Shown here one piece after another: positions 3,069 through 62,808 of a DNA stretch of 64,000 nucleotides. A program made the position numbers and the translations under genes. Source of the DNA: Entophlyctis helioformis (lineage: Eukaryota; Chytridiomycota; Chytridiomycetes; Chytridiales; Chytriomycetaceae); contig JAHLKH010000101.1 in the NCBI GenBank assembly GCA_025526915.1, positions 1 through 64,000 on the forward strand. Reading direction: 5' to 3'. Positions within the stretch are counted from its first letter, which is position 1. Each line of letters begins with the position of its first letter. The notes under the pieces are model-generated. The model ran no database searches and had not been told where the DNA came from. It worked only from the letters and a program-made list of their open reading frames with translations.

Positions 3069-4504
3069 ATGGTAGGCGTCTTGCCGCATGCCGCCACGTG
3101 TGACGGGCTTGAGCGAGCAGCGAGCAGCGAGCTGCGACCAGCCAGCAGCACCGGTCGGGCAGCACCGGTTCAACACCAGCGACGTCGAGCACGACGGGAT
3201 GGACAGTCCCCAGCCCATCCACCTGTCCACTGGACGCCTTTCCCTCCTGCCCCCGTCGGCTGGATGGGATGGGATGGGATGGATGCGATGGGATGGGATG
3301 CGATTCCTGGTCGTGGCACATTGCGACTCGCAACTCGATTCAGGCAACACCGGCGGCAACAACCACACCGGCGACCAACTCACCGGCGACAGCAACAGCA
3401 GCGGCCGCCAACACTGTGACGGGTTCAGCCCCACGCCGCAGCCAGCCGCCACCCGTGAACTGCCGCCGCCAAACAGCATTCGACGACTGCAGCAGCAGCA
3501 GCAGCAACAATGCGGAATGCCGCCGAGTGGCTCTCTCAGCCGCAGTGCTCTGCATTCCTCAGCTGCGTGAACAGCACCACAGCGGCATCGACAGCGAGAG
3601 CGGCGTCTGCATCTGCTGGAACTTTGTCGCTGCTCGCTCAACGCCGACGTCCATTGCATGCTGCTCGTTCAAGCTGCCGTGCTTGCGATCGATGGTCTTG
3701 GTGCTGACAAGCGTGCGCTGCCTGTTTCCGACGGCATTCATGCCAATATAGGGTCGCGATCTCATCCAGAAGCACCACGTCAAGAAGGGCAACCGTACGG
3801 CCCCCAAGTCGCAGGCAAGTGGCCGCTGCATATGCGTAAAGCTTATCGCCAGCCGGCCTGCCTGCCGCAACGCCACTGACATTACATTTTCGATGCTTTT
3901 GCGCTCTTTAGGATGTCTACCTCAGCCTCCTCGTCAAGGTGTGTGCTCTCTCTCTCTCTCTTGCATGCATGCTTTGGCTTGAATCGTTCCCTGCTTGACG
4001 ACGAGCCGCTGACCACCGTGTGATGACCCGTCACAGCTGTACCGCTTCCTCGCTCGCCGCACGGACTCCAAGTTCAACAAGGTTGTCCTCAAGAGACTGT
4101 TTATGTCGCGTGTGAACCGCCCTCCCATCTCGGTTGCCCGTCTCAGCAAGTACCTTGCTGGCAAGGAGGGCAAGATCGCCGTCGTTGTTGGCACCGTCAC
4201 CGACGACATCCGTCTCCTCGAGGTCCCCAAGATGACCGTTGCCGCTCTCCGCGTCACCTCTGCCGCCCGTGCCCGCATCATCAAGGCCGGCGGTGAGATC
4301 CTCACTTTTGACCAGCTTGCCCTCCGGTCGCCCCTCGGCAAGGGCACCGTTCTCCTCCGTGGCCCCAAGAACTCGCGCGAGGCTGTCAAGCACTTTGGCA
4401 CCCCCGGCAAGCCCGGCTCCCACGCCAAGCCCTACGTCCGCTCCAAGGGCCGCAAGTTCGAGCGTGCTCGTGGTCGCCGTGCGTCGCGTGGTTACAAGAA
4501 CTAA
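3069..4504 (+). CDS. RPL18: 60S ribosomal protein eL18
   Basis: Exons are 3069-3071, 3752-3814, 3912-3938 and 4037-4504, giving 186 residues, the usual length for eukaryotic L18. The first coding exon is the ATG alone. It is followed by a 680-bp intron (GTAGGC...ATATAG), by far the longest in this gene. Intron 2 (3815-3911) starts with GCAAGT, a GC-AG intron. Exon 4 carries the highly conserved core, including '[20 protein letters not shown]', '[10 protein letters not shown]' and the basic tail. The protein is a component of the large ribosomal subunit. Codon use is strongly C-ending, typical of a highly expressed gene. A TCACGTGA element lies 75 bp upstream. Confidence 0.95.
3261..3301 (+). 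repeat. GATGG-type tandem repeat inside eL18 intron 1
   Basis: Direct tandem copies of GGGAT/GATGG-type pentamers lie within the long first intron of RPL18. CAG runs occur further along in the same intron (about 3489-3510). These are simple repeats; they have no coding role if the intron model is right. Confidence 0.7.
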
Positions 4505-4795
4505 GCATACGAGGCACTCTTGTAGTAGTGATGATGAATCTGGTGGCTGTTGTCGTTGCTGCCTCTGCCGGTACTTGTGTACGTATCGTCGTCGGGGTCT
4601 CGTCTTTGTTGCTCCCGCTTTCCCCTGTTCCTCGTCTGCCGGCATGATGGTGGCTCTGTGCAATGAAACCAAGTGCGGACCCGTTCTTTGCCATTGTGCC
4701 TTCTTTCACATCTGCCTCGCTGCCTCGCCGTCGCGTCTGTGCCGCGTCTGTGCACGCTCTTTGGTTGGTTCCCCCGCTGATCAGAAACAGTCGAC

Positions 4796-9172: not shown

Positions 9173-9786
9173 GGCGCTTGCACGAGCAGGTCAAGTGCTG
9201 GCTGGTGGTGGTGGTGGTGGTGGTGGTGTCCGAGTTGCTCGAGAAGGTGCAACAAACAATTCCGCAGATCGTGTCCGAACGGTGCTCAGCCCAGCCCAGA
9301 CCTGCAACAGCGCTGCGGAGCCGCTCCAAACCCGTGCGGGCCTGACTGCAATGCCCGGGATCAACGGCTCTGTTGGAGCCGTCTGGCCAGTTCGCTCCTC
9401 CAACCACCTCCAGCCTGCCCTGCACACTTGGCACACATTCGTGCAGGACCCCACTTTCGCAGGTTTGCTCAGTGCCACGCCAGCCAAGTCGGCCGTGTCA
9501 GGATGGCGTGTCGGTCCAAAGGGCGGCAGGCCATGCGGCGGGCCACGGGGGCAAAGAACGCGGCAGGCCACGGCGGCCAACAGCCACCAAGGCTGCAAAT
9601 ATGCGACGATCGCGCCGCTTTCACAGCAACGGAAGCGCCACCCCTCGCAAAAACGCGTCTTCTGAAACACAGGGAGGTTCGCCAACGGCCGCTCGTTTGA
9701 AACGTCTGTGGTGGCACTCGCCGCGCGCCGCAAGTGTCGGGTGGCCCTGACGGCGCCGTCCGGGCAGCGCCGCCTGGGCAGCGCTG
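9173..9786. other. Intergenic region between HAT1 and the secreted-protein pair
   Basis: This divergent interval holds the HAT1 promoter and the upstream region of the first secreted-protein gene. It contains a (GGT)n run at about 9201-9227. No gene is supported: open frames here are composition artefacts without recognisable domains. Confidence 0.5.
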
Positions 9787-9793
9787 TATAAAA
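9787..9793 (+). promoter_or_regulatory. TATA box of secreted-protein gene 1
   Basis: TATAAAA lies 84 bp before the ATG. It sits in a block of about 60 bp (from about 9781) that is nearly identical to the promoter of the tandem paralogue at 11164-11230, so the core promoter was duplicated with the gene. Confidence 0.8.
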
Positions 9794-9870
9794 CGCGGCC
9801 GCCCCCCTGCGACGGTTCCCGCATCAAGCTCTCAGCTGTACATTCCCCTGTAACACTCCTCCAACTCAAG

Positions 9871-10707
9871 ATGATCTTCAACGCTGCCGTCCTCGCCCTC
9901 ACCGCCGTCGCCGTCGTCCCCGTCCAGGCCCGTTTCGGCCAGCAGAACCCTCCTGCTGAGGGTCTTGCCAACGCCGCCGTTGGCGGTGGCATCGCCGGCC
10001 AAATCCCCAGCGCTCTTCTCGGTGCTGCCGACCCCTGCCTCAAGCTCTCGCTCGCCGACACCATCGCTGCCGCCAAGCCCGGTGATGCTGCCGCCCTCAC
10101 CGCCGCCAAGGCGCTGGTGAACACCGAGAAGAACTTCAACCCGTTCACGCCTGGCGCGCTCCCGACGCTCTGTAACGACCCGGCGCTCCCCAAGACGCCC
10201 GAGCTCCGCGGCATCCTCGCTCTCGTGTCCGACCAGGACCTCCCCACCAAGTTTGGTGCCAACGGCGGTCTGACTGCGGCCCAGATCAACGCCATCGCCA
10301 CCAAGTCCCTGACCACGCCGATCGCCAACAACGCCGGCAAGTCGGTCGCCCAGCTGTTCGCTGATCAGGGCTTCAAGGACTTTGTCGGTGCCGACAAGCT
10401 CAAGGTTGCCGCTGGTGGCGCTGCTCCTCCTCCTGCTGCCGACAACAAGCCCACCGGCACTGGCGCTGCCAAGGCTGTCGTGACCACCACGGTCACCGTC
10501 ACTCGCGCGGCCTCTGCAACCGAGTGTGCTGCTGCCGGCAACAACGTCACTCCTCCCCCTCCCCCTCCTGCTGTTGGTGGCAACACTGGCGCCGGCGCCG
10601 GCGCGACTGGCGGCAACGCTGGAAACGGTGGCAAGTCGGGTCTCAGCGCAGGCGTCATTGCCCAGCTGAAGGACCTTCTTTCCCAGATGGTGAAGGTCCT
10701 TGGTTGA
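9871..10707 (+). CDS. Secreted Ala/Gly-rich protein, paralogue 1
   Basis: Single exon, 278 residues. Residues 1-20 form a clear signal peptide with a hydrophobic core and a likely cut after VQA. The mature part begins RFGQQNPPAEGL and has two cysteines in the shared domain (DPCLKLSL and PTLCNDPALP) and a compact helical region to about residue 180. After this the protein changes to a Thr/Val segment, a Pro run, a Gly/Asn-rich linker and a short amphipathic C-terminal helix (AQLKDLLSQMVKVL). I do not recognise the family. Strong C-ending codon use and a TATA promoter suggest high expression. A secreted or wall-associated structural role is inference. The shared domain is identical to that of the gene at 11248. 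Confidence 0.8.
   Translation: MIFNAAVLALTAVAVVPVQARFGQQNPPAEGLANAAVGGGIAGQIPSALLGAADPCLKLSLADTIAAAKPGDAAALTAAKALVNTEKNFNPFTPGALPTLCNDPALPKTPELRGILALVSDQDLPTKFGANGGLTAAQINAIATKSLTTPIANNAGKSVAQLFADQGFKDFVGADKLKVAAGGAAPPPAADNKPTGTGAAKAVVTTTVTVTRAASATECAAAGNNVTPPPPPPAVGGNTGAGAGATGGNAGNGGKSGLSAGVIAQLKDLLSQMVKVLG
9919..10421 (+). repeat. 503-bp segment identical to 11290-11792 (copy A)
   Basis: By eye I find no difference between this segment and 11290-11792 (offset 1371 bp), including third codon positions. The flanking signal-peptide codons and the 3' halves of the two genes differ strongly. Confidence 0.85.
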
Positions 10708-11169
10708 TCTTCTTGCCCAATGAATATACAGTTCGACTACTAGCTTTGTCATTACCATCCCTTGAAGGACTCCCCAACGTAACAGCAGAGACACCAGCCA
10801 ATAGACGCCGTCCAGCAGACGCTGTCCAATAGACAACATCGCACACAGAGAGGCGCACGCCCTCTGGCTTTCATCGTGGTGTTCCCTGCGAGCCACCACC
10901 TGAATGACGTCATGGGGAGCAGGCCAACCAATAGCCAAGTGGCGCCGTGTGTGATATCCATTAGAGCGAAGTAGTCCATTGTTCGGCGATTAATCGGCAC
11001 GCCGTCCGGCCACGTAGCCCTTGGCAGCCCTTCGCAGCCCTTTGCGCGTGGCGCACAGTGGCCCAGGCACGCGCTTGGCGCCACTGCTTTGTGTCTTTTG
11101 AAACAGGCTTGGTGGCGCGCTGTTTTTTGAGCCAATCAGCGAGACAAGGGCGCTGCCCGGACGGCGCTG
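10708..11169. promoter_or_regulatory. Intergenic/promoter region of paralogue 2 with CCAAT boxes
   Basis: No gene is seen. Several CCAAT motifs lie at about 10798, 10826 and 10928, and a CCAATCAGCG at about 11135, upstream of the TATA box at 11170. CCAAT sites are typical binding sites of the fungal HAP/NF-Y complex; use here is inferred. Confidence 0.5.
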
Positions 11170-11176
11170 TATAAAA
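11170..11176 (+). promoter_or_regulatory. TATA box of secreted-protein gene 2
   Basis: TATAAAA lies 78 bp before the ATG at 11248. It is set in the same GCGCTG-TATA-AAACGCGGCC context as the first gene, followed by a matching leader (CCTGCGACGGTTCCCGCATC). Confidence 0.8.
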
Positions 11177-11247
11177 CGCGGCCGTCCCCCCTGCGACGGT
11201 TCCCGCATCAAGCTCTCTGTTGTACATCCCCTTGAACATAACCAACA

Positions 11248-12413
11248 ATGATCGTTGCCATTCTCGTCGCCGCTCTCGCCATCGCCGCTCCCGTCCAGGC
11301 CCGTTTCGGCCAGCAGAACCCTCCTGCTGAGGGTCTTGCCAACGCCGCCGTTGGCGGTGGCATCGCCGGCCAAATCCCCAGCGCTCTTCTCGGTGCTGCC
11401 GACCCCTGCCTCAAGCTCTCGCTCGCCGACACCATCGCTGCCGCCAAGCCCGGTGATGCTGCCGCCCTCACCGCCGCCAAGGCGCTGGTGAACACCGAGA
11501 AGAACTTCAACCCGTTCACGCCTGGCGCGCTCCCGACGCTCTGTAACGACCCGGCGCTCCCCAAGACGCCCGAGCTCCGCGGCATCCTCGCTCTCGTGTC
11601 CGACCAGGACCTCCCCACCAAGTTTGGTGCCAACGGCGGTCTGACTGCGGCCCAGATCAACGCCATCGCCACCAAGTCCCTGACCACGCCGATCGCCAAC
11701 AACGCCGGCAAGTCGGTCGCCCAGCTGTTCGCTGATCAGGGCTTCAAGGACTTTGTCGGTGCCGACAAGCTCAAGGTTGCCGCTGGTGGCGCCGCTCCTC
11801 CTGCCGCTCCTCCTGCCGCTCCTCCTCCTGCTGCCAACGACGCCGCCAAGAAGGCCGCCGAGGAAGCCGCGAAGAAGGCCGAGGATGCCAAGAAGGCCGC
11901 GACTGGCGTTGATGCCAAGAAGGCCGAGGACGCCAAGAAGGCTGAGGAGGCCAAGAAGGCCGCGACTGGCGTTGATGCCAAAAAGGCCGAGGACGCCAAG
12001 AAGGCTGAGGAGGCCAAGAAGGCCGCGACTGGCGTTGATGCCAAAAAGGCCGAGGACGCCAAGAAGGCCGAGGATGCCAAGAAGGCCGAGGATGCCAAGA
12101 AGGGCGCGACTGGCGTTGATGCCAAGAAGGCCGAGGACGCCAAGAAGGCCGAGGACGCCAAGAAGGCTGAGGACGCGACGAAGGCTACGGAGAAGAAGGC
12201 CGAGGACGCGACGAAGGCTGCGGAGAAGAAGGCCGAGGACGCGACGAAGGCTGGAGGGCCGAGGAGAAGAAGGCCGAGAAGGAAGGCCGGGGGCATGGCC
12301 GGGGCAATGGCCGTGGCAAGGGCAAGGGCAAGGGCAAGAAGGGCAACCTGACTGGCAAGGACCTCAACGACCTCCGCAAGCTTATTGCTGCCCTTGACAA
12401 GATCGTTAACTGA
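11248..12413 (+). CDS. Secreted Lys/Ala/Glu-repeat protein, paralogue 2, with apparent frame break
   Basis: The frame opens with a different signal peptide (MIVAILVAALAIAAPVQA) and then runs through a domain identical to paralogue 1 (11290-11792). It then enters a PAAPPAAPP hinge and a highly charged region made of repeats of about 20 residues (AATGVDAKKAEDAKKAEEAK) that should form a long alpha-helix. In the reading frame as given the protein stops at 12351 after an odd Arg-rich tail. Changing frame by minus one near 12250 instead gives a Gly/Lys/Arg stretch (GRGHGRGNGRGKGKGKGKK) and an end 'LNDLRKLIAALDKIVN' that mirrors the C-terminal helix of paralogue 1. The intended stop is therefore probably the TGA at 12411-12413. 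The break may be a sequencing error, a recent mutation or a real variant tail. Function unknown. Confidence 0.7.
11290..11792 (+). repeat. 503-bp segment identical to 9919-10421 (copy B)
   Basis: Copy B of the shared mature domain. Sharp edges at codons for VQA on the left and the Pro hinge on the right suggest gene conversion or a very recent partial duplication. Confidence 0.85.
11865..12250 (+). repeat. Tandem repeats coding AKKAEDAKKAEEAKKAATGVD units
   Basis: Four or more imperfect 60-66-bp units repeat in phase, followed by shorter DATKAAEKKAE units. They encode the helical Lys/Ala/Glu region of paralogue 2. The frame break at about 12250 sits at the end of the array, where slippage or misassembly is likely. 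Confidence 0.8.
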
Positions 12414-28700: not shown

Positions 28701-30291
28701 CCAGTACACGCGCAACAAGGCAGTGCAACGCAATGATTCCATACCTCTGTCGGATTGCTTCAGACGTCGACTGGTTGTTATCGCTAACGTGGCCAGGTTG
28801 GTCAGCCACGATATCGGCTGCATGTTCGTGAGACTCTTGCTCTTGGGCGTCATGAGGCTGGACAGCCTGAGCATCGTGATCGTGATCGTGCTCATAGTCA
28901 TCGGCGTAGTCATGCTGAGCATCGTGATCTGCAGCAGTAGCTGGGTCTGGCGCATGGCCATCAGCACCACCTAGCTGATCGCGAGAGCCGGCAAGCTTGG
29001 CAGCAGACTGTGCCTTGGCGAGTTGATCGCGAGAGCCAGCCAGCTTCTCCGAGGATTGCGCCTTGGCGAGTTGATCGCGAGAACCGACGAGCTTCTCCGA
29101 GGACTGTGCCTTGGCGAGTTGATCACGAGAACTGGTGAGCTTCTCCGAGGACTGTGCCTTGGCGAGTTGATCACGAGAACTGGTGAGCTTGGCAGCAGAC
29201 TGTGCCTTGGCGATTTGATCACGAGAACTGGTGAGCTTAGCGGCAGATTGTGTCTTGGCAAGTTGATCGCGAGAGCCAACGAGCTTCTCCGAGGACTGTG
29301 CCTTGGCAGCAGGAGCATGATCGGGCTCGTGCTCACGGTGCTCATCATCGTGATGGTGGTCCTCAAAGTCGTCACCGTATCCATGATCGTGATCATGGTC
29401 GTGGCCATGCTCGGCAACTCCGGCAGGGCCTGTCGAATGCTCGCCCGATGCGGGAATGTCCTTACTGCTTCCAGCACGGTCGAGGTTCTTTTGCGACCCG
29501 GCTTTCAGGCTCGCGACACTGGCGCGGTTGCTGGTGGTTGGCTTGGGAGCAGCTGAGTCGCCGACTGCCTTGCTGCCAGAGAGACTGGCTGTGGACTGTC
29601 TGGCGCTTGCTGTGCCTGCGTCACTGGCGGCTGCTGGGACGGGGGCGGGGGCGGGGGCAGAGGGGGCAGACGGGCCGTCGCGGATGCTTTGTCTCGATTG
29701 GCGCAGCTTGCTTGCCGACCCAGAGTGAGCGAGTTGGTCACGCGACGAGGCCAGTGGCTTGGGCGATGAGCTAGTGGCTTTGGCGTTTGTATCGCTGTCG
29801 GCGGTGTTTTGGACGCTGGCCGAACGGGCAAGGGCGGTCTGTGACTTTGCGACACCTGCAGACACCTTATCCTTGCCGCCGATGCTGGCCGTGCTGGCCG
29901 TCTTGTTAAGGGCGTTGACTGATCCGGCCTTGGCAGGAGCCGCAGGAGCAGCAGCAGTGGCGGCATTGCTCAGCTGATCCTTTGATCCAGCAGCGGCGAG
30001 AGCAGTCTTTGAGCCTCGCAGACTGGTGCGCGACGATCGCAGGTTGGGCTGCGACGCCTGGGAGGCCGGCGGAGGCACGGCCGGCGGGTGTGGCTTGGGA
30101 GCATCGCCCGTGTGCGAGTCCTCGGCCATGTTGTGCACCGAGGCTTGCTTTGTGGCTGGCGTGGCCAGATTGTCACGAGATCCTGATTTGGCTGGAGGGT
30201 TTGGAGCGTCGGACGAGGGCAGCAGCGGCAGTGACGGCTGCTTCTGAACACCGACGCCGATGCCGGCGACAGGCATCCCTTCGGCGCTCAT
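22731..30291 (-). CDS. Giant CAP-Gly protein with repeat-rich N-terminal region
   Basis: Minus-strand exons are 30291-28745, 28661-25228, 25147-24553, 24517-24320, 24254-24177, 24107-23822, 23716-23114, 23017-22899 and 22823-22731, about 2,317 residues. The N-terminal third is Ser/Ala-rich and contains seven 16-residue repeats (SRDQLAKAQSSEKL type). A block of AKASAPASAR repeats follows, then a very acidic His/Glu/Gln region with recurring YDQEFEQHA motifs. Exons 4-6 give coiled coil ('DLRQEIRRLHSEIERRDSS', 'IALLKRQIRHLKYQRNSL'). The C-terminal CAP-Gly domain reads 'VGDRVCVV', 'GIQLDRPLGTHDG' and 'KENHGIFVR'. CAP-Gly domains bind EEY-type tubulin or EB1 tails, so a microtubule-associated role is inferred. 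Exon 3 needs a one-base frame correction near 25040, or a weak cryptic intron. An alternative start lies at 30387. Confidence 0.72.
28973..29305 (-). repeat. Seven 48-bp coding repeats in the CAP-Gly gene
   Basis: Head-to-tail 48-bp units encode 16-residue repeats of the form S[SA][EA]KL[VTA][GS]SRDQLAKAQ. Units differ by a few substitutions but never in length, so the frame has been kept by selection or recent homogenisation. Confidence 0.85.
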
Positions 30292-47386: not shown

Positions 47387-47624
47387 CCACCACGGCTGTG
47401 CATTATCCTGTTTGTTTTTGTCCCTTCTATACTTGAATACAGCCTGTGATATGTTGTACGCCTCATCGGCAATGGCAAAGACACAAGAGCGCCGGGAGAG
47501 GCAAGAAAAGAGAAGGTTTTTTTTAGGTGATGCCAAAGTTCATTCCAAGAAGATTCCCAGTCCCCAAGACACTAGATGCCATACCCTTTCGAGCTTTAGG
47601 CCGTGCGTAGATCCCTCAGTTATG

Positions 47625-49877
47625 TCATCCCCCTGGTCCGACACGTCCACGGTGATGTATCCATAAAGTACGCTGGAACACACCATGGGCCGCCTGAAGA
47701 AATGCGCACATTCGCGAGGCGAGTGGACGCACGTCTCCAGGTGCATTGACTTGTTGCCGGTCACCACAGAGCCAAGACTCTGTGATGTCCGCAACACCGG
47801 ATAGAACTCCTCCGCCGAGGAGCGTTATGTACACTTGGTCGATTCTTGTAGATACTCGGATGGTCCTAAACGTAGCCAGAAGATCGTCGTCATAGCCGAG
47901 AGCGGCGAGAGCGGCGGGATCGTTGGATTCGGGGAGTTTGTGTTCGATGGCTTCCGAGATCTGGGCAATGAATGGGGCGAGGTTGGCGTTGTCGCGTTGG
48001 ATGGCGAGGCCGGTGCAGCTGACGACAAAGTGAGCCCACTCGTGGGTGCCGTTCAGGCTCTGGTTGCAGAGGATGCAGCAGCCGTCGGTGAAGGGGTGGT
48101 TGGCGGCGAGGAGGTTGAGGCGGAGGGCGAACTTGAGCGTCCACAGGCCGTCGATCCGGGCGAGCAGCAGAGTGCGGACGCCATCGGCAAGGTCGTAGCC
48201 GAAGCAAGGGGAGTTGGCGAAGCTGATGTCTGTGAACTGGCGGGCAAAGAAGGCGGTGGCAAGATCGGACTTGGGGGAGAGCAGACTGGTACGGGCAATA
48301 CGGAGGTTGGTGCGGTCGAGGATGGAGAAGGTGGGGAGGGGGTCGTTACGGGCAACAGGAGGAGCAAAGTCGGAGAGGTGGAGACGGTTGAACAGGAGGC
48401 GAGAAACACGAGTCCAGTAATGGCGACGGGCGGTGAATTCGGTGTTGTGGTGCTGGGAGAGGAGGGCGAGCGGGGTGCGGAGCGAGCGGGCCTTGCGGGA
48501 CAGACGGAGACGAGCATCGACGGCGCGGGCATCGACACTGAAGACGCTTGTTTCGATGAGCAGCGGGGCGACGGGAACCGAGCGAGGAGCCTTGCAGATC
48601 AGACGGACGCCGTTGTTGATGATGGTTTGCAGCGGGTTGAGGAGCGTGCGCTTGGAGCCGACAGCCTCGAGGCCGTAGCCGGCGACGCCGAGGGCCGATG
48701 CCTTGAAGACACGCAGCCGGACGTGGATGGGCAGCTTGGTGTTGGTGATGACCGGGTGCAGCGAGGCGACCGCGTTGCGGAGCGACTTGGCCTTGGCGTT
48801 GATCCACGGCTTGAACGTGAGCTTGTCGTCGATGGTGACGCCGAGGTAGACGTACTCGTGCTTGATCGGCACCTGGATGCCGTCAATGGTGAAGAGCGGG
48901 GCTGGAGGGGCAGGATGGGCAGGGAGGGGACGGCCACGGCACGGGCACGGGGAGGGCGAGGGCGAGGGGCATCGGGGTCGGGAGGGTCATCGGGGTCAAG
49001 AGGGTCATCAGGGCGATCATCATCAAAGGCAAAGCGGAGGATGGCGCACTTGGACACGCCAAAGGACATCTCCCATCTCTTGGCCCAGTCGACGACCAAG
49101 GTGAGGGCAGCGGTGAGAGCAGCGGGCGACTCGCACAGCAGGACAAGGTCGTCTGCAAAGAGCAAGCCGCGGATCATCTTGTTTCGGCCGTTGCCAGCTT
49201 GGTCGACGCCTGGGATGTGGATCTCGGGGACGCCGTCGAGGATGTCGTTGATGAAGAGGTTGAACAGGATCGGGCTGAGAGGGCAGCCTTGGCGGACGCC
49301 GCGCTCGACCGGGAAGGACTCTGAGAGCGACGCGCCCGCGCGAGCACGGGCTGTGGGGTTGGTGTAGAGAGCACGCAGGTAAGCAAGCATGCGCGGAGGG
49401 ATCTGCAGCCGTTCCAGCTTCCAGAGCAGGGCCTCGAAGGGCACAGTGTCAAACGCCTTGCGCAGGTCAACAAAGGCAGCATAGGTGGGCAGGCCCACTG
49501 CACGGCGACGCTGGATGATGTCGATGAGCGCACAGATCTGAGCGGGGCACTCCTCGCGGCGGCGGAAACCTGCTTGTTCGTGCACCAGCAGGTCGTTGGC
49601 TTCGACGAGATCGTTGAGGCGAGCAGCGACGATCTTGGACACGATCTTGAGGCCGTGTTGATCAGCGAGATGCCGCGGTGGTCATTGGGGTCGAGTGGGT
49701 CGCCCTTCTTGGGAATGGAGACGATGGTGGACGAGGTCCAGCGGTCGGGGATCTTTGCCTGCAGGAAGATGGCATTGCACACACGGAGCAAGGCGGCGGC
49801 AGCAGGATTGGGGGGAGGGTCAGCTGGTGGTGGTGGCTGCTGCAGGTACTCTTGGAGAGTCGGGAGAGGCTGGGGCG

Positions 49878-49928
<51 letters not shown>

Positions 49929-51414
49929 GAGGCGGCTCGTACAGCATGGTCTTGAAGAACGCTGCTGGCAGGCTGTCGTCGCCTGGCGCCTTGCGGGCCT
50001 GCATCTTGCGCAGAGTCGCGCTGATCTCGTCCCAGTCGAGCGGGGCATCAGCCTCCTCGGCGTGGCGTCTGACCACGCGGGACGGAGGCTGCAGGGTCGC
50101 ACCCAGCCGCTCCCAGTGGTCGCGGTTGAGGCTGTTGGATTGGGCAGCGCTGGCAAGGTCTCTGTAGTGGTCATGCCACACAGCGCAGATGTCGTCAGGC
50201 TCGTAGCTGATCAGATCGGTGCCTGACCGGCGGATGGGCGACGTGATGGCAGACGAGCGAGCGCCGCCCTTGGCCATGAAGCGGATCCTGGCCCAGGCCG
50301 CCCCCACGCGAGAGTCGGCAAACATCTCGGAGAGGTTAGCCGTGTGCTTGCGCCAGGCAGCAGTGTCGTCCTGCCTGGAGAGCGTCCTGGCTGCCCGCTT
50401 GGCATCGCGAAAGGCGTCGAGTGCCGTGGCGACGGCCGCAGGGTCAGCGTGGCGATCCTCGGCGAGCGCACGCCAGGTGTTGTAGGCGACATGGCGAGCT
50501 TGCAGGGCTCGGACGGTGGCCGGCCTGAGCTTGCGGTGGAAGGCAGGTGCGTTAGCTGGCTGGCGGACCTGAGTGTCGTCGGCGACTCTCTGGGCCGTCT
50601 CGACAAAGGCGTTGGTGAGCGTGTTGATGTCGGTGTCCTCGGGCAGATCCGCCAGGGGCTGCCAGTAGTTGTGCGTCGCGATGGCAACCTCGCGCGCCTT
50701 GCAGAGAGCTGGGTGGATGCGGGCGGGCGCCTCGGAACGGCAGAGGAGCAGCACGGAGGCGGGTGCGGATCGGCCAGTGGTCGGAGCAGTCGTGGTTCCT
50801 GTCCACACGGGTGCTGCAGAGCAGGGCAAGGGCAGCATCGTTAACCACAAAGTGATCAATGGAGGACCATCTGGCGCCTTGTCTGAAGCCATGGCGCGTG
50901 GCAGGGCTGCCAGAGAACTGCATGACGCGCAGCCCAGGCCCCAGCCTGCGATGCGGCGACGGAGCATCTGCTTGGTCGTGTTCCAGTCACCACCGATGAT
51001 GACTGGGCGGTCGTGCTGCATGGCGTGATTGAGGGCATCGCGGATGGCGTTGAACGTGGCGGGACGCTCAGAGTGACCGACGTAGACCGAGCCGACGAGC
51101 CAGACACAGCCAGGTGTCAGGTTGGGGGCACGAGCAAGGATGAGCGATCCGGGGACGCCTCTGACTTCCGAAGCAGCCAGATGCGAGGGGAAGCCGAGCG
51201 CGAGGCCGCGGATGTTGGGGCCGGTGGCGGGGTGGTGCAGCACGTGGTAACCAGGGACCGTGAAGGGAAACGCGCCCGTCACAAAGTTGGTTTCCTGTAG
51301 AGCAAAGATCATGGGGTTGACAGAGCGGAGGATGGAACGCAGCTCAGGCCTCTTCCCAAGGCCACCATTGATGTTCCAAGAGAAGATCAGGCGGGACGCG
51401 CCAGCGGCAGGCAT
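47625..51414 (-). pseudogene. LINE ORF2: AP endonuclease plus reverse transcriptase, frame-broken
   Basis: Proposed start 51414 (MPAAGASRLIFSWNINGG). The endonuclease shows 'IFALQETNF', 'GGDWNTT', then 'SIDHFVVNDAAL' and 'SDHWPI', the last two in a different frame (breaks near 50920 and 50700 that cancel). A polyQ run from a CTG repeat (49881-49930) separates it from the reverse transcriptase. That has 'IPKKGDPLDPNDHRGISLIN', motif A 'FVDLRKAFDTV' (about 49471), motif B 'RQGCPLSPILFNLF' and motif C 'LLFADDLVLL' (about 49150). Breaks near 49655 and 48905 precede 'HEYVYLGVTIDDKLTF' and the C-terminal CILCNQS...HEWAHFVVSC zinc motif. No RNase H domain is seen. Confidence 0.8.
49881..49930 (-). 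repeat. CAG/CTG triplet run coding polyQ in LINE ORF2
   Basis: About 16 CTG triplets (plus strand) encode a Gln run in the linker between endonuclease and reverse transcriptase. Confidence 0.9.
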
Positions 51415-51549
51415 CGCGGCACCAACCGCAGCAGCAGCAGGGGCAGCGCGAGGAGGAACAGCAAGGTGCACACGACGGAAACGACCAGCGCATGCGGGAA
51501 GAGGCTTGCCGCATGTACTTGAAGATCTCATCGAGGTGGAGGACGGGGC

Positions 51550-52122
51550 GTACGCGGTAGATGCTGCGGAATGGCTTGCAGTGGAACTTGACTTGGATGG
51601 CGTTTCCAGTGCGCAGACGCTCGGGGAGGATCTGGGCAAGGATGGCGTGGAAGTTGGCGACGGTCATGGGCGAGCAGTTGCTGACGATGATGGCGTACTC
51701 GGGAGCGTCGAGGGGAGGCGGTTGATGTGTTGGGGTGGTGCGGCTGGTGTTGCGGCTGGTGTTGCGGCGGGAGGTAGTGCGGTTGGTGGGGAGGGTGGTG
51801 AGGAGGAGGGGAGGGCGATGGGGACGGGTCGGGGAAGATCGGCGTAGGGGGCAGGTTGGCGGCGTCTATGGGGCTGGGTAGAGCCGAGTGCTGAGAGGCC
51901 GGTCCCTCACTCAGCACGTCGGACAGGTTATCAAGGTCGCTACTTAACATGACTGTGGGTCGACAGTCATGTCAGCGCACGGCGTGTTGTACATCTCGTC
52001 GAGCGAGTGCACATCATCATCCGAGTCAGCGGCAGCAGGAGCAGGGGCAGCAGGGGCAGCAGGGGCAGCAGGGGCAGCAGGGGCAGGAGCAGAAGCGGCG
52101 GGGGCCTCCACTCGAGGCATGC
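51550..52122 (-). pseudogene. LINE ORF1 region, broken
   Basis: From an ATG at 52122 (MPRVEAP) the frame gives an Ala/Pro run and 'DSDDDVHSLDEMYNTPCADM', and stops at 51944. A second frame opens at 51950 with an overlapping ATG/TAA and gives 'LSSDLDNLSDVLSEGP' and a Pro/His-rich stretch. A third frame, entered near 51720, gives 'APEYAIIVSNCSPMTVANFH' and 'KFHCKPFRSIYRVRPVLHL', which look structured. The pieces together resemble an ORF1 protein with disordered N-terminal half. No zinc knuckle is visible in it. Confidence 0.5.
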
Positions 52123-52425
52123 GCTGGCTGGCCACAAGAAGCAAAAAGGAGCAAAAATGTCGAGCGGAGTGGTGCATGCGGTGGGGTTCGAACCCACGCA
52201 GGCTTTCGCCTATAACGTCTTAAGCGTCACGCCTTAGACCACTCGGCCACACATGCGCAAAACCTCCAGTCGAAATTCCCGCACATTGTCTGTTTGAACG
52301 CTACCTCTGAAAACAGCCTCAGCGTGAGACACGTGAGACATGAGACATCTGCAACGAGCAGCACAGCTGGTGGTGGTTGTGCAAGAGCAGCCCAAGACTG
52401 CGAGGCAAAGAGGGACGTGAGACAG
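52115..52425 (-). repeat. tRNA-Leu cassette, copy 1 (311 bp, about 95 percent to 61678-61990)
   Basis: On the minus strand this block covers about 169 bp of upstream sequence (with TCTCATGTCTCACGTGTCTC), the tRNA-Leu gene and about 58 bp of downstream flank. It matches the block at 61678-61990 with a handful of substitutions and small indels. Similarity ends at GCGCATGCCT in both, where the LINE copies take over. Confidence 0.85.
52173..52256 (-). tRNA. tRNA-Leu (anticodon UAA), copy 1
   Basis: 84-nt tRNA with a long variable arm, as expected for leucine. The acceptor GCATGTG pairs with CGCATGC with one U-G pair. The anticodon stem TGACG/CGTTA encloses CTTAAGA, so the anticodon is TAA. The variable arm AGGCGAAAGCCT and the T loop GTTCGAACC are clear. 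A T5 run about 15-20 nt downstream is a plausible Pol III terminator. Confidence 0.95.
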
Positions 52426-52492
52426 ACGTGAGACAGATGTGCCAGTGACGATCCACAGTGCCACCGGCAGATCTTCGCCTTGAACTCGCACG

Positions 52493-59656: not shown

Positions 59657-61652
59657 ATGCCCGACCACAAGCCAGACTCGGTCGTCCAGAACTGGGCGCC
59701 TCCGCTGCCGCACCAGGCATCGTCGGGCTCGTCGCTGCTCCTTGGCTCGTCCACATTCTCGTCGTCCTCGGCGCCCGTGTCGGCGTCGGCCGCGAACGCT
59801 GCCCATGTCGGCCCGCACAGCAAGGAGCGCATCGCCTACCTGCACTGCAACGAAGTCGGCAACTTTCACTACGGGTGTGTCCATGCCTGCATCTCCGCTC
59901 CGTGCATCCATCCGCTCACCGGGCTCTTTGCTCTCCGGCTCACACGCTGCATGGCACCGCTGCCAGTGACGGCCACCCCATGAAGCCGGCTCGTCTGGCG
60001 CTCACCCACAACTTGGTCATCGGATACAACCTCCATAAGAAGATGCAGGTGTACTCGCCGCGACGTGCGACGGACGAAGACATGGCCGAATTCCACTCGG
60101 AGGACTACATCGAGTTCATCAAGCGGTACGCACTCTGCTGTCTCGCCCGCAGCTGCCCTCTGGACGCTACTGCCACTGCCGTGGCCGATCTGACCTGCTG
60201 TGCCATGCAACAGAGTCACGCCAGAGAACATCCACAACTTTACAAAGTTCCTGTCGCGCTTCAACATTGGTGTCGAAGACTGCCCGGTCTTTGACGGCCT
60301 CTACGACTTTTGCCGCATCACGTCCGGTGCATCCATCGAGGGTGCCCGCAAACTCAACTCGGGCGATGCAGACATTGCCATCAACTGGAGCGGCGGCCTC
60401 CATCACGCCAAAAAGTTTGAGGCGTCTGGGTTCTGCTACGTCAACGATATTGTGCTGGCGATCCTCGAGCTGCTGCGGTACCATCCGCGTGTTCTGTACA
60501 TTGACATTGACGTGCATCACGGCGATGGTGTCCAAGAAGCCTTTTACCACGTACGACCGCGCGGCTGTCTGATTGTCGTGTGTTGCCATTCAGTGATGCT
60601 GACCCCGCGTGCACCGCGTTGTGTCTTCTCTGGCATGCTCTGCCCTGTCCATCTCCTCCGCGCTGACACATGGCAATGACGGCTCCATGACGACTAGTCC
60701 AACCGCGTCATGACCGTCTCGTTCCACAGATATGACGGCCAGTTCTTCCCAGGCACAGGTAGCAAAGAAGAGACTGGTGCTCGCGATGGAAAGCACTATT
60801 CCATCAACGTGCCTCTGCACGAATTCATTGACGACGCATCCTACGCGTACATCTTCAAGCATGTCATGACCAACGTCATGGAGACATTCCGGCCATCGGT
60901 CATCATCCTGCAGTGCGGCGCCGACTCGCTCGCCAGCGACCGGCTGGGCTGCTTCAATCTGTCCATCAAGGGCCACGGCGAGTGCGTGCGGTTCATGAAG
61001 AGCTTCCGCGTGCCCATGCTCGTGCTAGGTGGCGGCGGCTACACGATCCGCAACGTCGCGCGCTGCTGGACGTACGAGACGGCGGTGCTCACTGACACGG
61101 CCCTCTCGAACGATCTGCCGTACAACGAGTACCTGTCCCACTACGGCCCCGACTTTAAGCTGCACCCGCCCATCATCGACAACCACTCGGAGAATGCAAA
61201 CTCGCTTGCGTATCTGGATGGCCTCCGCCAGAGCATTGCCGAGACGCTGCGGTATCTGGATGCCGCGCCGAGCGTGCACATGAGCGCCATCCCGCCGCCC
61301 ATTGCCACGTTTCTGGAATCCGAGCAGGCTGCGGTAAGCGACGCGCAGTGGGGCTCTGTGTGCATTCGCGCCGCCTTCTCACGCTTGTGCATCCCCCCTT
61401 CCCTCCCTCTTACAGGCCGACAAGGCAGAGGATCGGTTCCCGGACGAGCGCCGCGGTGCAGGCGGTCAGATGGAGCGGCCGACGCTGCACGACGGCGAGC
61501 ACGGCTACGACGACAAGGGCCACGGCCACGACCATGACCACGACACCCCGGCCGCTGGACGGACAGGGTCGGCAGGTGCAGTGCGTGGCAAGGGACAGCC
61601 GCAGTCCAAGGCAGGCGAAGAGGACATGGACGTGGAGGTCGAAGTCGCCTGA
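59657..61652 (+). CDS. HOS2: Class I histone deacetylase, HOS2/HDAC3-like
   Basis: Exons are 59657-59874, 59967-60125, 60214-60550, 60698-61333 and 61416-61652, giving 528 residues. The catalytic core is complete: 'NFHYGDGHPMKP', 'FHSEDYIEF', the active-site pair in 'GGLHHAKK', zinc ligands in '[11 protein letters not shown]', '[15 protein letters not shown]', '[14 protein letters not shown]' and the catalytic tyrosine in 'LVLGGGGYT'. '[18 protein letters not shown]' favours the HOS2/HDAC3 branch over RPD3. A Ser/Ala/Pro-rich N-terminal extension of about 55 residues and a His/Asp/Gly-rich tail ending [10 protein letters not shown] are lineage features. HOS2-type enzymes act in SET3/NCoR-like complexes on transcribed genes. 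Its stop lies only about 25 bp before the tRNA-Leu cassette. Confidence 0.94.
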
Positions 61653-61677: not shown

Positions 61678-61990
61678 TCTGTCCCACGTCCCTCTTTGCC
61701 TCGCAGCTTTGGGCAGCTCCTGCACAACCACCACCAGCTGTGCTGCTCGTCGCAGATGTCTCATGTCTCACGTGTCTCACCCTGAGGCAGTTTGCAGAGG
61801 TAGCGTTCAAACAGACAATGTGCGGGAATTTCGACTGGAGGTTTTGTGCATGTGTGGCCGAGTGGTCTAAGGCGTGACGCTTAAGACGTTATAGGCGAAA
61901 GCCTGCGTGGGTTCGAACCCCACCGCATGCACCACTCCGCTCGTCATTTTTGCCCTTTTTTTGCTCCTTGTGGCCAGCCAGCGCATGCCT
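61678..61990 (+). repeat. tRNA-Leu cassette, copy 2 (matches 52115-52425, inverted)
   Basis: Plus-strand copy of the block at 52115-52425. Similarity covers the upstream region, the tRNA and the downstream flank up to GCGCATGCCT. Confidence 0.85.
61848..61931 (+). tRNA. tRNA-Leu (anticodon UAA), copy 2
   Basis: Same 84-nt sequence as copy 1 at 52173-52256, by eye without any change, with anticodon TAA and a long variable arm. A run of eight Ts about 20-30 nt downstream may terminate Pol III transcription. Confidence 0.95.
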
Positions 61991-61998
61991 CATATGGA
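61984..61998 (+). repeat. Target-site duplication, left copy (CATGCCTCATATGGA)
   Basis: This 15-bp sequence is repeated exactly at 62794-62808 on the other side of the LINE fragment. Confidence 0.92.
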
Positions 61999-62793
61999 CC
62001 GCACCAAGCTCCGTATTGCCCGTACCAGCCTGCTTTCCCCCAAGTCCGATCTCGCCACCGCCTTCTTCGCCCGCCAGTTCACAGACATCAGCTTCGCCAA
62101 CTCCCCTTGCTTCGGCTACGACCTTGCCGATGGCGTCCGCACCCTGCTGCTCGCCCGGATCGACGGCCTGTGGACGCTCAAGTTCGCCCTCCGCCTCAAC
62201 CTCCTCGCCGCCAACCACCCCTTCACCGACGGCTGCTGCATCCTCTGCAACCAGAGCCTGAACGGCACCCACGAGTGGGCTCACTTTGTTGTCAGCTGCA
62301 CCGGCCTCGCCATCCAACGCGACGACGCCAATCTCGCCCCATTCATTGCCCAGATCTCGGAAGCCATCGAACACAAACTCCCCGAATCCAACGATCCCGC
62401 CGCTCTCGCCGCGCTCGGCTTCGACGACGATCTTCTGGCTACGTTTAGGACCATCCGAGTATCTACAAGAATCGACCAAGTGTACATAACGCTCCTCGGC
62501 GGAGGAGTTCTATCCGGTGTTGCGGACATTACAGAGTCTTGGCTCTGTGGTGACCAGCAACAAGTCAATGCACCTGGAGACGTGCGTCCACTCGCCTCGC
62601 AAATGTGCGCATTTCTTCAGGCGGCCCATGGTGTGTTCCAGCGAACTTTATGGATACATCACCATGGACGTGTCGGACCAGGGGGATGACATAACTGAGG
62701 GATCTACGCACGGCCTAAAGCTCGAAAGGGTATGGCATCTAGTGTCTTGGGGACTGGGAATCTTCTTGGAATGAACTTTGGCATCACCTAAAA
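61999..62793 (+). mobile_element. 5'-truncated LINE copy (3' 795 bp)
   Basis: The fragment matches the 3' end of the LINE at 47517-52114 on the opposite strand, starting inside the ORF2 C-terminal region ('RIARTSLLSPKSDLATAFFA') and including the zinc motif CILCNQS...HEWAHFVVSC. It ends CATCACCT followed by a short A run. It is framed by a perfect 15-bp target-site duplication, the mark of target-primed reverse transcription. Few differences from the long copy (for example N/D, Y/F, R/Q codons) indicate recent insertion. The C-terminal frame is still open. It lies 67 bp downstream of tRNA-Leu, same orientation. Confidence 0.92.
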
Positions 62794-62808
62794 CATGCCT
62801 CATATGGA
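62794..62808 (+). repeat. Target-site duplication, right copy (CATGCCTCATATGGA)
   Basis: Exact repeat of 61984-61998. Its last base is the A of the proposed AlkB-like ATG at 62808. Confidence 0.92.

Follow-up and report, generated by a model that had tools for sequence, protein, structure and literature searches.

The contig JAHLKH010000101.1 of the chytrid Entophlyctis helioformis (assembly GCA_025526915.1; positions 1 to 64,000 of the forward strand, hereafter "the window") carries two copies of a long interspersed nuclear element (LINE), each placed just behind a tRNA-Leu gene. The analysis of the whole genome reported here shows that this fungal LINE nearly always inserts just downstream of small-RNA genes and in their orientation. 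At 43 of the 49 readable loci that retain the 3' end of the LINE, a gene for a transfer RNA (tRNA; 39 loci), signal recognition particle (SRP) RNA (2), U6 (1) or U1 (1) ends 15-155 bp upstream on the same strand, against a chance expectation of about 0.07 of 49 loci within 155 bp on that strand; this expectation is rough, taking 551 tRNA candidates generously, and the 155-bp limit was chosen after the data were seen. With looser criteria, 47 of the 49 loci are associated, the additions being two tRNA-His genes at about 300 bp, one unannotated hairpin RNA gene and one remnant (C104, where a tRNA-Glu lies 200 bp before a bare 24-mer). Nine of 14 further readable loci are likewise associated, with seven tRNA genes, one U6 and one unannotated hairpin RNA gene. 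Gene and LINE share the strand in all 56 associated loci, and the distance from the tRNA gene to the LINE has a median of 94 bp (quartiles 76 and 116, range 37-155, n=46). The genes upstream comprise 19 kinds of tRNA (18 labels plus tRNA-His); at the Ala-AGC loci, the gene nearer to the LINE is another tRNA, to which ARAGORN gave no definite anticodon. The original proposal, made from the two copies of the window, was that the element is targeted to tRNA genes. The rule extends genome-wide, most copies lying close to small-RNA genes; targeting to tRNA genes thus stands, but restriction to them does not, as SRP, U6, U1 and an unannotated RNA gene are used too.

Copies were collected from 29.57 Mb of sequence in 482 contigs. 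A 24-base pattern from the LINE 3' end, allowing up to 3 mismatches, gave 70 matches (none for the reversed control), which were grouped into 53 loci, 49 of them with a readable 5' flank. DNA searches with three LINE pieces, in which the best 40 of 111, 64 and 66 candidates were scored, added 15 loci of at least 90% identity lacking the 3'-end pattern, 14 of them readable; matches of 69-71% identity were put aside as a sister family and stand outside the 63 readable loci. At C77, C105a and C453 the LINE stands at the contig end, C214b likewise meets a contig end, and C142 has 148 bp left; the 5' flank of these five could not be read. Distance was taken from the gene 3' end to the first LINE-derived base downstream, which at C26, C91a and C105b belongs to a fragment split off by a later insertion. 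The converse count was made from the tRNA genes of the genome, the best 63 of 551 candidates being scored: eight have this LINE starting at most 200 bp downstream on the same strand, where 0.015 would be expected, and none of the 63 has it within 200 bp downstream on the opposite strand, or upstream in either orientation. Sister copies are kept outside this count (one downstream on the same strand at C154, one upstream on the opposite strand at C11).

In the window, the features that bear on the two insertions are the following.

52170..52256, minus strand: tRNA-Leu(TAA), target gene of the long LINE (ARAGORN)
47517..52113, minus strand: long LINE copy with interrupted reading frames (self-BLAST, flank comparison, open reading frames)
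47517-47524: A-rich 3' tail of the long LINE, seen as a T-run on the plus strand
50971..51381, minus strand: apurinic-type endonuclease domain, Exo_endo_phos PF03372 (Pfam E 4.9e-10, residues 95-231 of the open reading frame 49174-51663)
49037..49651, minus strand: reverse transcriptase domain, RVT_1 PF00078 (Pfam E 3.6e-31, residues 11-215 of the open reading frame 48599-49681)
61848..61934, plus strand: second tRNA-Leu(TAA), target gene of the truncated LINE (ARAGORN)
61984..61998, plus strand: target-site duplication, left copy
61997..62793, plus strand: 5'-truncated LINE copy (BLAST limits; its first 2 bases overlap the target-site duplication)
62794..62808, plus strand: target-site duplication, right copy
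61678..61991, plus strand: 313-bp tRNA block, outside the LINE, with an inverted duplicate at 52114-52426 (self-BLAST, 95%)

The 5' end of the long copy was placed where homology between both tRNA blocks stops, which puts its 5' junction 56 bp past the tRNA-Leu 3' end, in agreement with the roughly 60 bp, in the same orientation, first proposed. The originally marked span, 47517..52256, holds for the LINE part; its upper limit takes in the tRNA, the element proper reaching about 47517-52113. The truncated copy does lie downstream of the other tRNA-Leu(UAA), as had been claimed, although at 62 bp rather than the 67 bp given. Self-comparison of the window yields a 797-bp match of 97.9% (47521-48317 against 61997-62793), the truncated copy corresponding to positions 3814-4610 of the 52130-47518 reference at 97.9% identity, and it is flanked by a perfect 15-bp target-site duplication. 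Because the 313-bp tRNA block is itself duplicated, the two copies of the window alone could not decide between repeated targeting and joint duplication. A Pfam search of the C-terminal and ORF1 pieces of the LINE gave no result. A CAG/CTG repeat in the LINE frame (49870-49930) encodes a glutamine run between the endonuclease and the reverse transcriptase.

The targets other than tRNA genes were pursued by whole-genome Rfam searches for U6, SRP and U1 (47 of 1089, 26 of 804 and 41 of 432 candidates scored), and the candidates scored include two U6 loci, two SRP loci and one U1 locus. The LINE stands behind all of them (2/2, 2/2 and 1/1), on the same strand and 15-48 bp after the RNA. The two loci of the U6 pair are related, as are those of the SRP pair, so that old insertions are partly common to both members. 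U6, SRP and U1 share an upstream element, TCCCACAACC, which precedes the RNA start by 56-58 bp in U6 and SRP and by 84 bp in U1; a U5 gene found through the motif has it at 87 bp. The loci concerned are L038, L020, L031, L010, L046 and L116, and no LINE was present in the 139 bp read downstream of the U5 gene. The two spacings (56-58 vs 84-87 bp) resemble the snRNA-gene rule of plants, where the spacing of promoter elements separates small nuclear RNA (snRNA) genes transcribed by RNA polymerase II (Pol II) from those transcribed by RNA polymerase III (Pol III). Head-to-tail arrays of truncated LINE copies lie behind U6 and SRP genes at L020 (C67:1-9999) and L010 (C19:84584-94583), the array at C67 having a repeated unit of about 1.36 kb.

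An unannotated gene family came to light through one insertion without a recognised gene. Upstream of the LINE at C6 and at the related C452 there is no Rfam gene, yet the TCCCACAACC element is present. Followed by two purines, this motif has 71 matches in the genome, against 13 for the reversed pattern; eight known places and 14 ending in GG were left out, and 23 of the remaining 49 were read. Eleven of the 20 places read first, together with C6 and C452, form one family, in which TCCCACAACC is followed, after exactly 56 bp, by a hairpin with a variable loop and then a T-run (71-80 bp in all, counted from where the hairpin starts through the first run of at least 4 T); three further places were judged by eye to fall outside it. 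The members read are given here.

C6:260323-260505 (L009)
C452 (L042)
L109
L110
L113
L118
L119
L121-L124
L126
L127

The hairpin folds better than shuffled sequences in the four members compared (z from -2.4 to -3.0 in 4/4), covariation being weak (1 of 32 pairs). A genome search with the family returned 32 matches, 29 of them nearly full-length, and no Rfam match was found in the stretches read. We predict from this a family of small-RNA genes with about 30 members. Past the T-run, the LINE follows at 101-110 bp in C6, C452 and C133, that is, at 3 of the 13 copies whose downstream side was read.

The insertions themselves were made by target-primed reverse transcription (TPRT), as shown by target-site duplications and an empty-site allele. 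Of the 31 loci with both flanks, 9 have direct repeats of at least 11 bp at the junctions, where shuffled flanks give 0.34 on average, and the target-site duplications measure 12-15 bp. At a Gly-TCC tRNA gene, C43 is the empty-site allele of the 744-bp insertion carried by C64, which is bounded by a 13-bp duplication. The newer copy sits there between the tRNA and an older copy, so that the gene, and not the tail of the older LINE, sets the place; the same order of copies rejects the LINE's own tail as a target, which had been considered for the head-to-tail arrays. Repeated insertion at one gene is therefore seen directly, and the variable 5' ends, A-tails, target-site duplications and empty site that characterize TPRT were all found. 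As a separate observation, 11 of 12 chosen short copies at different genes begin within 22 bp of one another, at positions 4390-4411, other copies starting elsewhere. These eleven are listed below.

L018
L015
L022
L061
L063
L064
L066
L069
L071
L059
L070

This clustering suggests a recurrent stop of reverse transcription or a short non-autonomous form. The head of a short interspersed nuclear element on these copies was considered and rejected, no shared upstream sequence being present in the 12 chosen copies.

With high, though not full, confidence, we regard the element as a non-LTR (long terminal repeat) retrotransposon of the apurinic-endonuclease (APE) type that integrates by TPRT just downstream of small-RNA genes, mostly of Pol III classes. 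Its targets are tRNA, SRP RNA, U6 and hairpin RNA genes and, once, U1; the copies share the orientation of the gene, and beyond tRNA 3' ends the distance is usually 60-130 bp. The LINE ribonucleoprotein may be tethered by a protein at transcribed Pol III genes, rather than guided by the target sequence; Pol III itself, TFIIIB/TBP or a shared snRNA factor are candidate tethers. Within this model, a tether formed by Pol III or by a factor at the end of the gene is somewhat favored, while U1 is easier to explain with TFIIIB/TBP or a shared snRNA factor as the tether. Pol III transcription is the feature presumably common to the tRNA, U6, SRP and hairpin-RNA genes, judging from their class and their T-runs: of the 36 gaps that separate LINE from gene, 34 contain a run of at least 4 T (a count made without a genome-wide T-run control), the exceptions being U1 and C6, where the T-run comes before the measuring point. 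Since the promoters of tRNA, U6 and SRP genes differ, yet all of them are targeted past the T-run, the gene 3' end or terminator appears to be the best reference point. External B boxes were considered as the ruler and rejected, their consensus being found in none of the 36 gaps.

Several observations weigh against such a general preference, or narrow it. At seven of the 63 readable loci, the 0.5-1.2 kb read upstream revealed no recognised RNA gene. Two of them are 3'-end loci, C24 and C11, which are 97% copies of each other; the other five, among the extra loci, are C198, C66 and the related copies C154a, C154b and C163, and the C163 fragment instead precedes a tRNA by 248 bp. Duplicates and alleles are frequent among the loci, and when those with a common gene and breakpoint are merged by eye, the independent events number at least about 35 rather than 56. 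Repeats of at least 11 bp are absent from 22 of the 31 loci with both flanks, old and composite copies among them, and the flank comparison detected no target-site duplication of that length around the long copy of the window. The U1 target is a single case, scoring 64.9 bits against an Rfam cut-off of 69.5, and its promoter spacing looks Pol II-like; provided that the plant spacing rule holds here, U1 would be a Pol II-type target. Furthermore, none of three related copies of 5S, a Pol III gene, has the LINE within 1.5 kb on each side; 5S uses another promoter type. The habit is also weaker in the sister LINE family, one copy of which lies upstream of a tRNA-Cys in the opposite orientation (C11, L074).

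The explanation first set against targeting was that the element includes the tRNA block, or that tRNA and LINE were duplicated together. The 313-bp block common to both loci of the window does speak for it, as do the several other loci that are duplicates or alleles, and in the window the block was indeed duplicated. As a general explanation, we find it scarcely credible: in place of one tRNA-Leu cassette on every copy, 19 kinds of tRNA as well as SRP, U6, U1 and hairpin RNA genes are found upstream, the LINE 5' ends vary among unrelated loci, the target-site duplications sit between gene and LINE, and C43 has the tRNA without the newer insertion. Both the variety of genes and the empty-site allele thus refute a travelling tRNA-LINE cassette. 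On the other hand, the LINE might insert at random and survive only beside small-RNA genes, through selection in a compact genome, and the surroundings of tRNA genes have been argued to be a safe place in dictyostelids (PMC5006619). Survival of this kind would not be expected to give a strict orientation (56 of 56) within a narrow window of distances, to keep the 200 bp around 63 tRNA genes free of upstream and opposite-strand copies, or to bring repeated insertion at the same gene, and we hold it to be very improbable.

Recognition of a DNA sequence by the endonuclease, for instance the T-runs of Pol III terminators, instead of a protein, would account for the T-runs in 34 of the 36 gaps. The insertion points are nonetheless spread over 5-147 bp from the first T-run, the target-site duplications have no obvious common motif by eye, and the U1 gap has no T-run, so that direct sequence recognition is also unlikely. 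Integration directed by a protein at the target gene is the reading that we retain.

Among known systems, the element works like TRE3 of Dictyostelium discoideum. Both are LINEs of the APE type, with an apurinic-type endonuclease (PF03372) and a reverse transcriptase (PF00078) here, and TRE3 inserts 40-150 bp downstream of tRNA genes in the same orientation, close to the 37-155 bp (median 94) of our 46 tRNA loci; two further loci lie about 300 bp past tRNA-His. The broad window of TRE3 is attributed to internal and external B boxes (PMC5911963), whereas the element described here lacks an external B box in 36 gaps, and its SRP and U6 targets would better fit a ruler set at the 3' end. It differs also in its chytrid host and in targeting SRP, U6, U1 and an unannotated RNA gene. 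Since its host is not a dictyostelid and the B-box feature was not found, it is not filed as a TRE. The fungal nature of the host is supported by its HDAC3-like gene (60698-61537). Among named fungi, the closest matches of this gene are a record labelled Hompol1, taken to be Homolaphlyctis polyrhiza (76%), and Batrachochytrium (74-75%), which suggests a chytrid in or near the order Rhizophydiales; the top-scoring row, an unverified record labelled sturgeon (50% over 61%), was set aside. TRE5, NLTR-A and NLTR-B of dictyostelids are also non-LTR elements at tRNA genes, but they lie upstream (PMC5006619, PMC5911963), and dictyostelid Skipper-2 goes downstream of tRNA genes but is an LTR retrotransposon (PMC5911963). 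Utopia, a non-LTR element tied to the U2 snRNA gene, offers another likeness, and elements of its type are grouped with LINEs that integrate target-specifically and have a restriction-like endonuclease (PMC4640811); the present element has an apurinic-type endonuclease and targets varied in sequence, and falls outside the Utopia/R2/NeSL group.

The nearest named relatives of its reverse transcriptase are proteins of Batrachochytrium salamandrivorans (57% over 61% of the query), and in the main text of the genome paper the term "tRNA" is absent (PMC9926174). Profile comparison with solved structures gave 141.6 bits for the LINE-1 ORF2 protein and 131.3 bits for R2, a small gap that does not firmly separate both. 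The sister LINE family (L073, C154:48800-52300), with about 69% identity where the two families match, has copies near a same-strand tRNA at C154 (91 bp), C103 (124 bp), C34 (310 bp) and C105 (about 115-165 bp, inside a LINE remnant), while at C275 only a weak partial tRNA match is present (28.5 bits). No gene was found in the roughly 400 bp read at C187, C229, C103 (second place), C104, C52 and C44, and the copies at C85, C284 and C15 extend 5' beyond the sequence read. Other fungal LINEs behave differently: Ylli of Yarrowia has no identified target-site duplication (PMC5014426), and Zorro3 of Candida sits at poly(A) sites (PMC7175516). Table 1 of PMC5911963 gives non-LTR elements at tRNA genes in dictyostelids only. 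Searches covering open-licence full texts listed no fungal LINE with a tRNA-gene habit, in line with the earlier remark that no standard one was known.

The window (G+C 61%) contains one more tRNA gene.

463-537: tRNA-Lys(CTT) (ARAGORN)

It has no neighboring LINE in the window, whereas tRNA-Lys(CTT) genes at C31 and C154 have one. Besides, a direct repeat of about 670 bp, 93.6% identical, occupies 9767-10437 and 11150-11808, and more tandem repeats lie at 11838-12282 and 28973-29307.

With respect to TRE3, the new features are the fungal host, the lack of external B boxes and the reach to SRP, U6 and U1 genes. A fungal case would make the targeting of tRNA genes by LINEs convergent, if common descent is excluded, and would provide a second system for asking which component of the Pol III machinery a LINE can grip. 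That tRNA, U6 and SRP genes are all used at a downstream site speaks against the B box as the sole ruler, and in practice LINE copies point to small-RNA genes, the unannotated family included. On balance, we lean slightly toward the view that this fungal lineage, independently of the dictyostelid TREs, evolved recognition of the Pol III/snRNA machinery and measures from the 3' end of the transcription unit and not from a B box, so that it marks tRNA, SRP RNA, U6, U1 and a hairpin family of about 30 copies; its insertions would then be a natural reporter of active small-RNA genes, including those still to be recognised.

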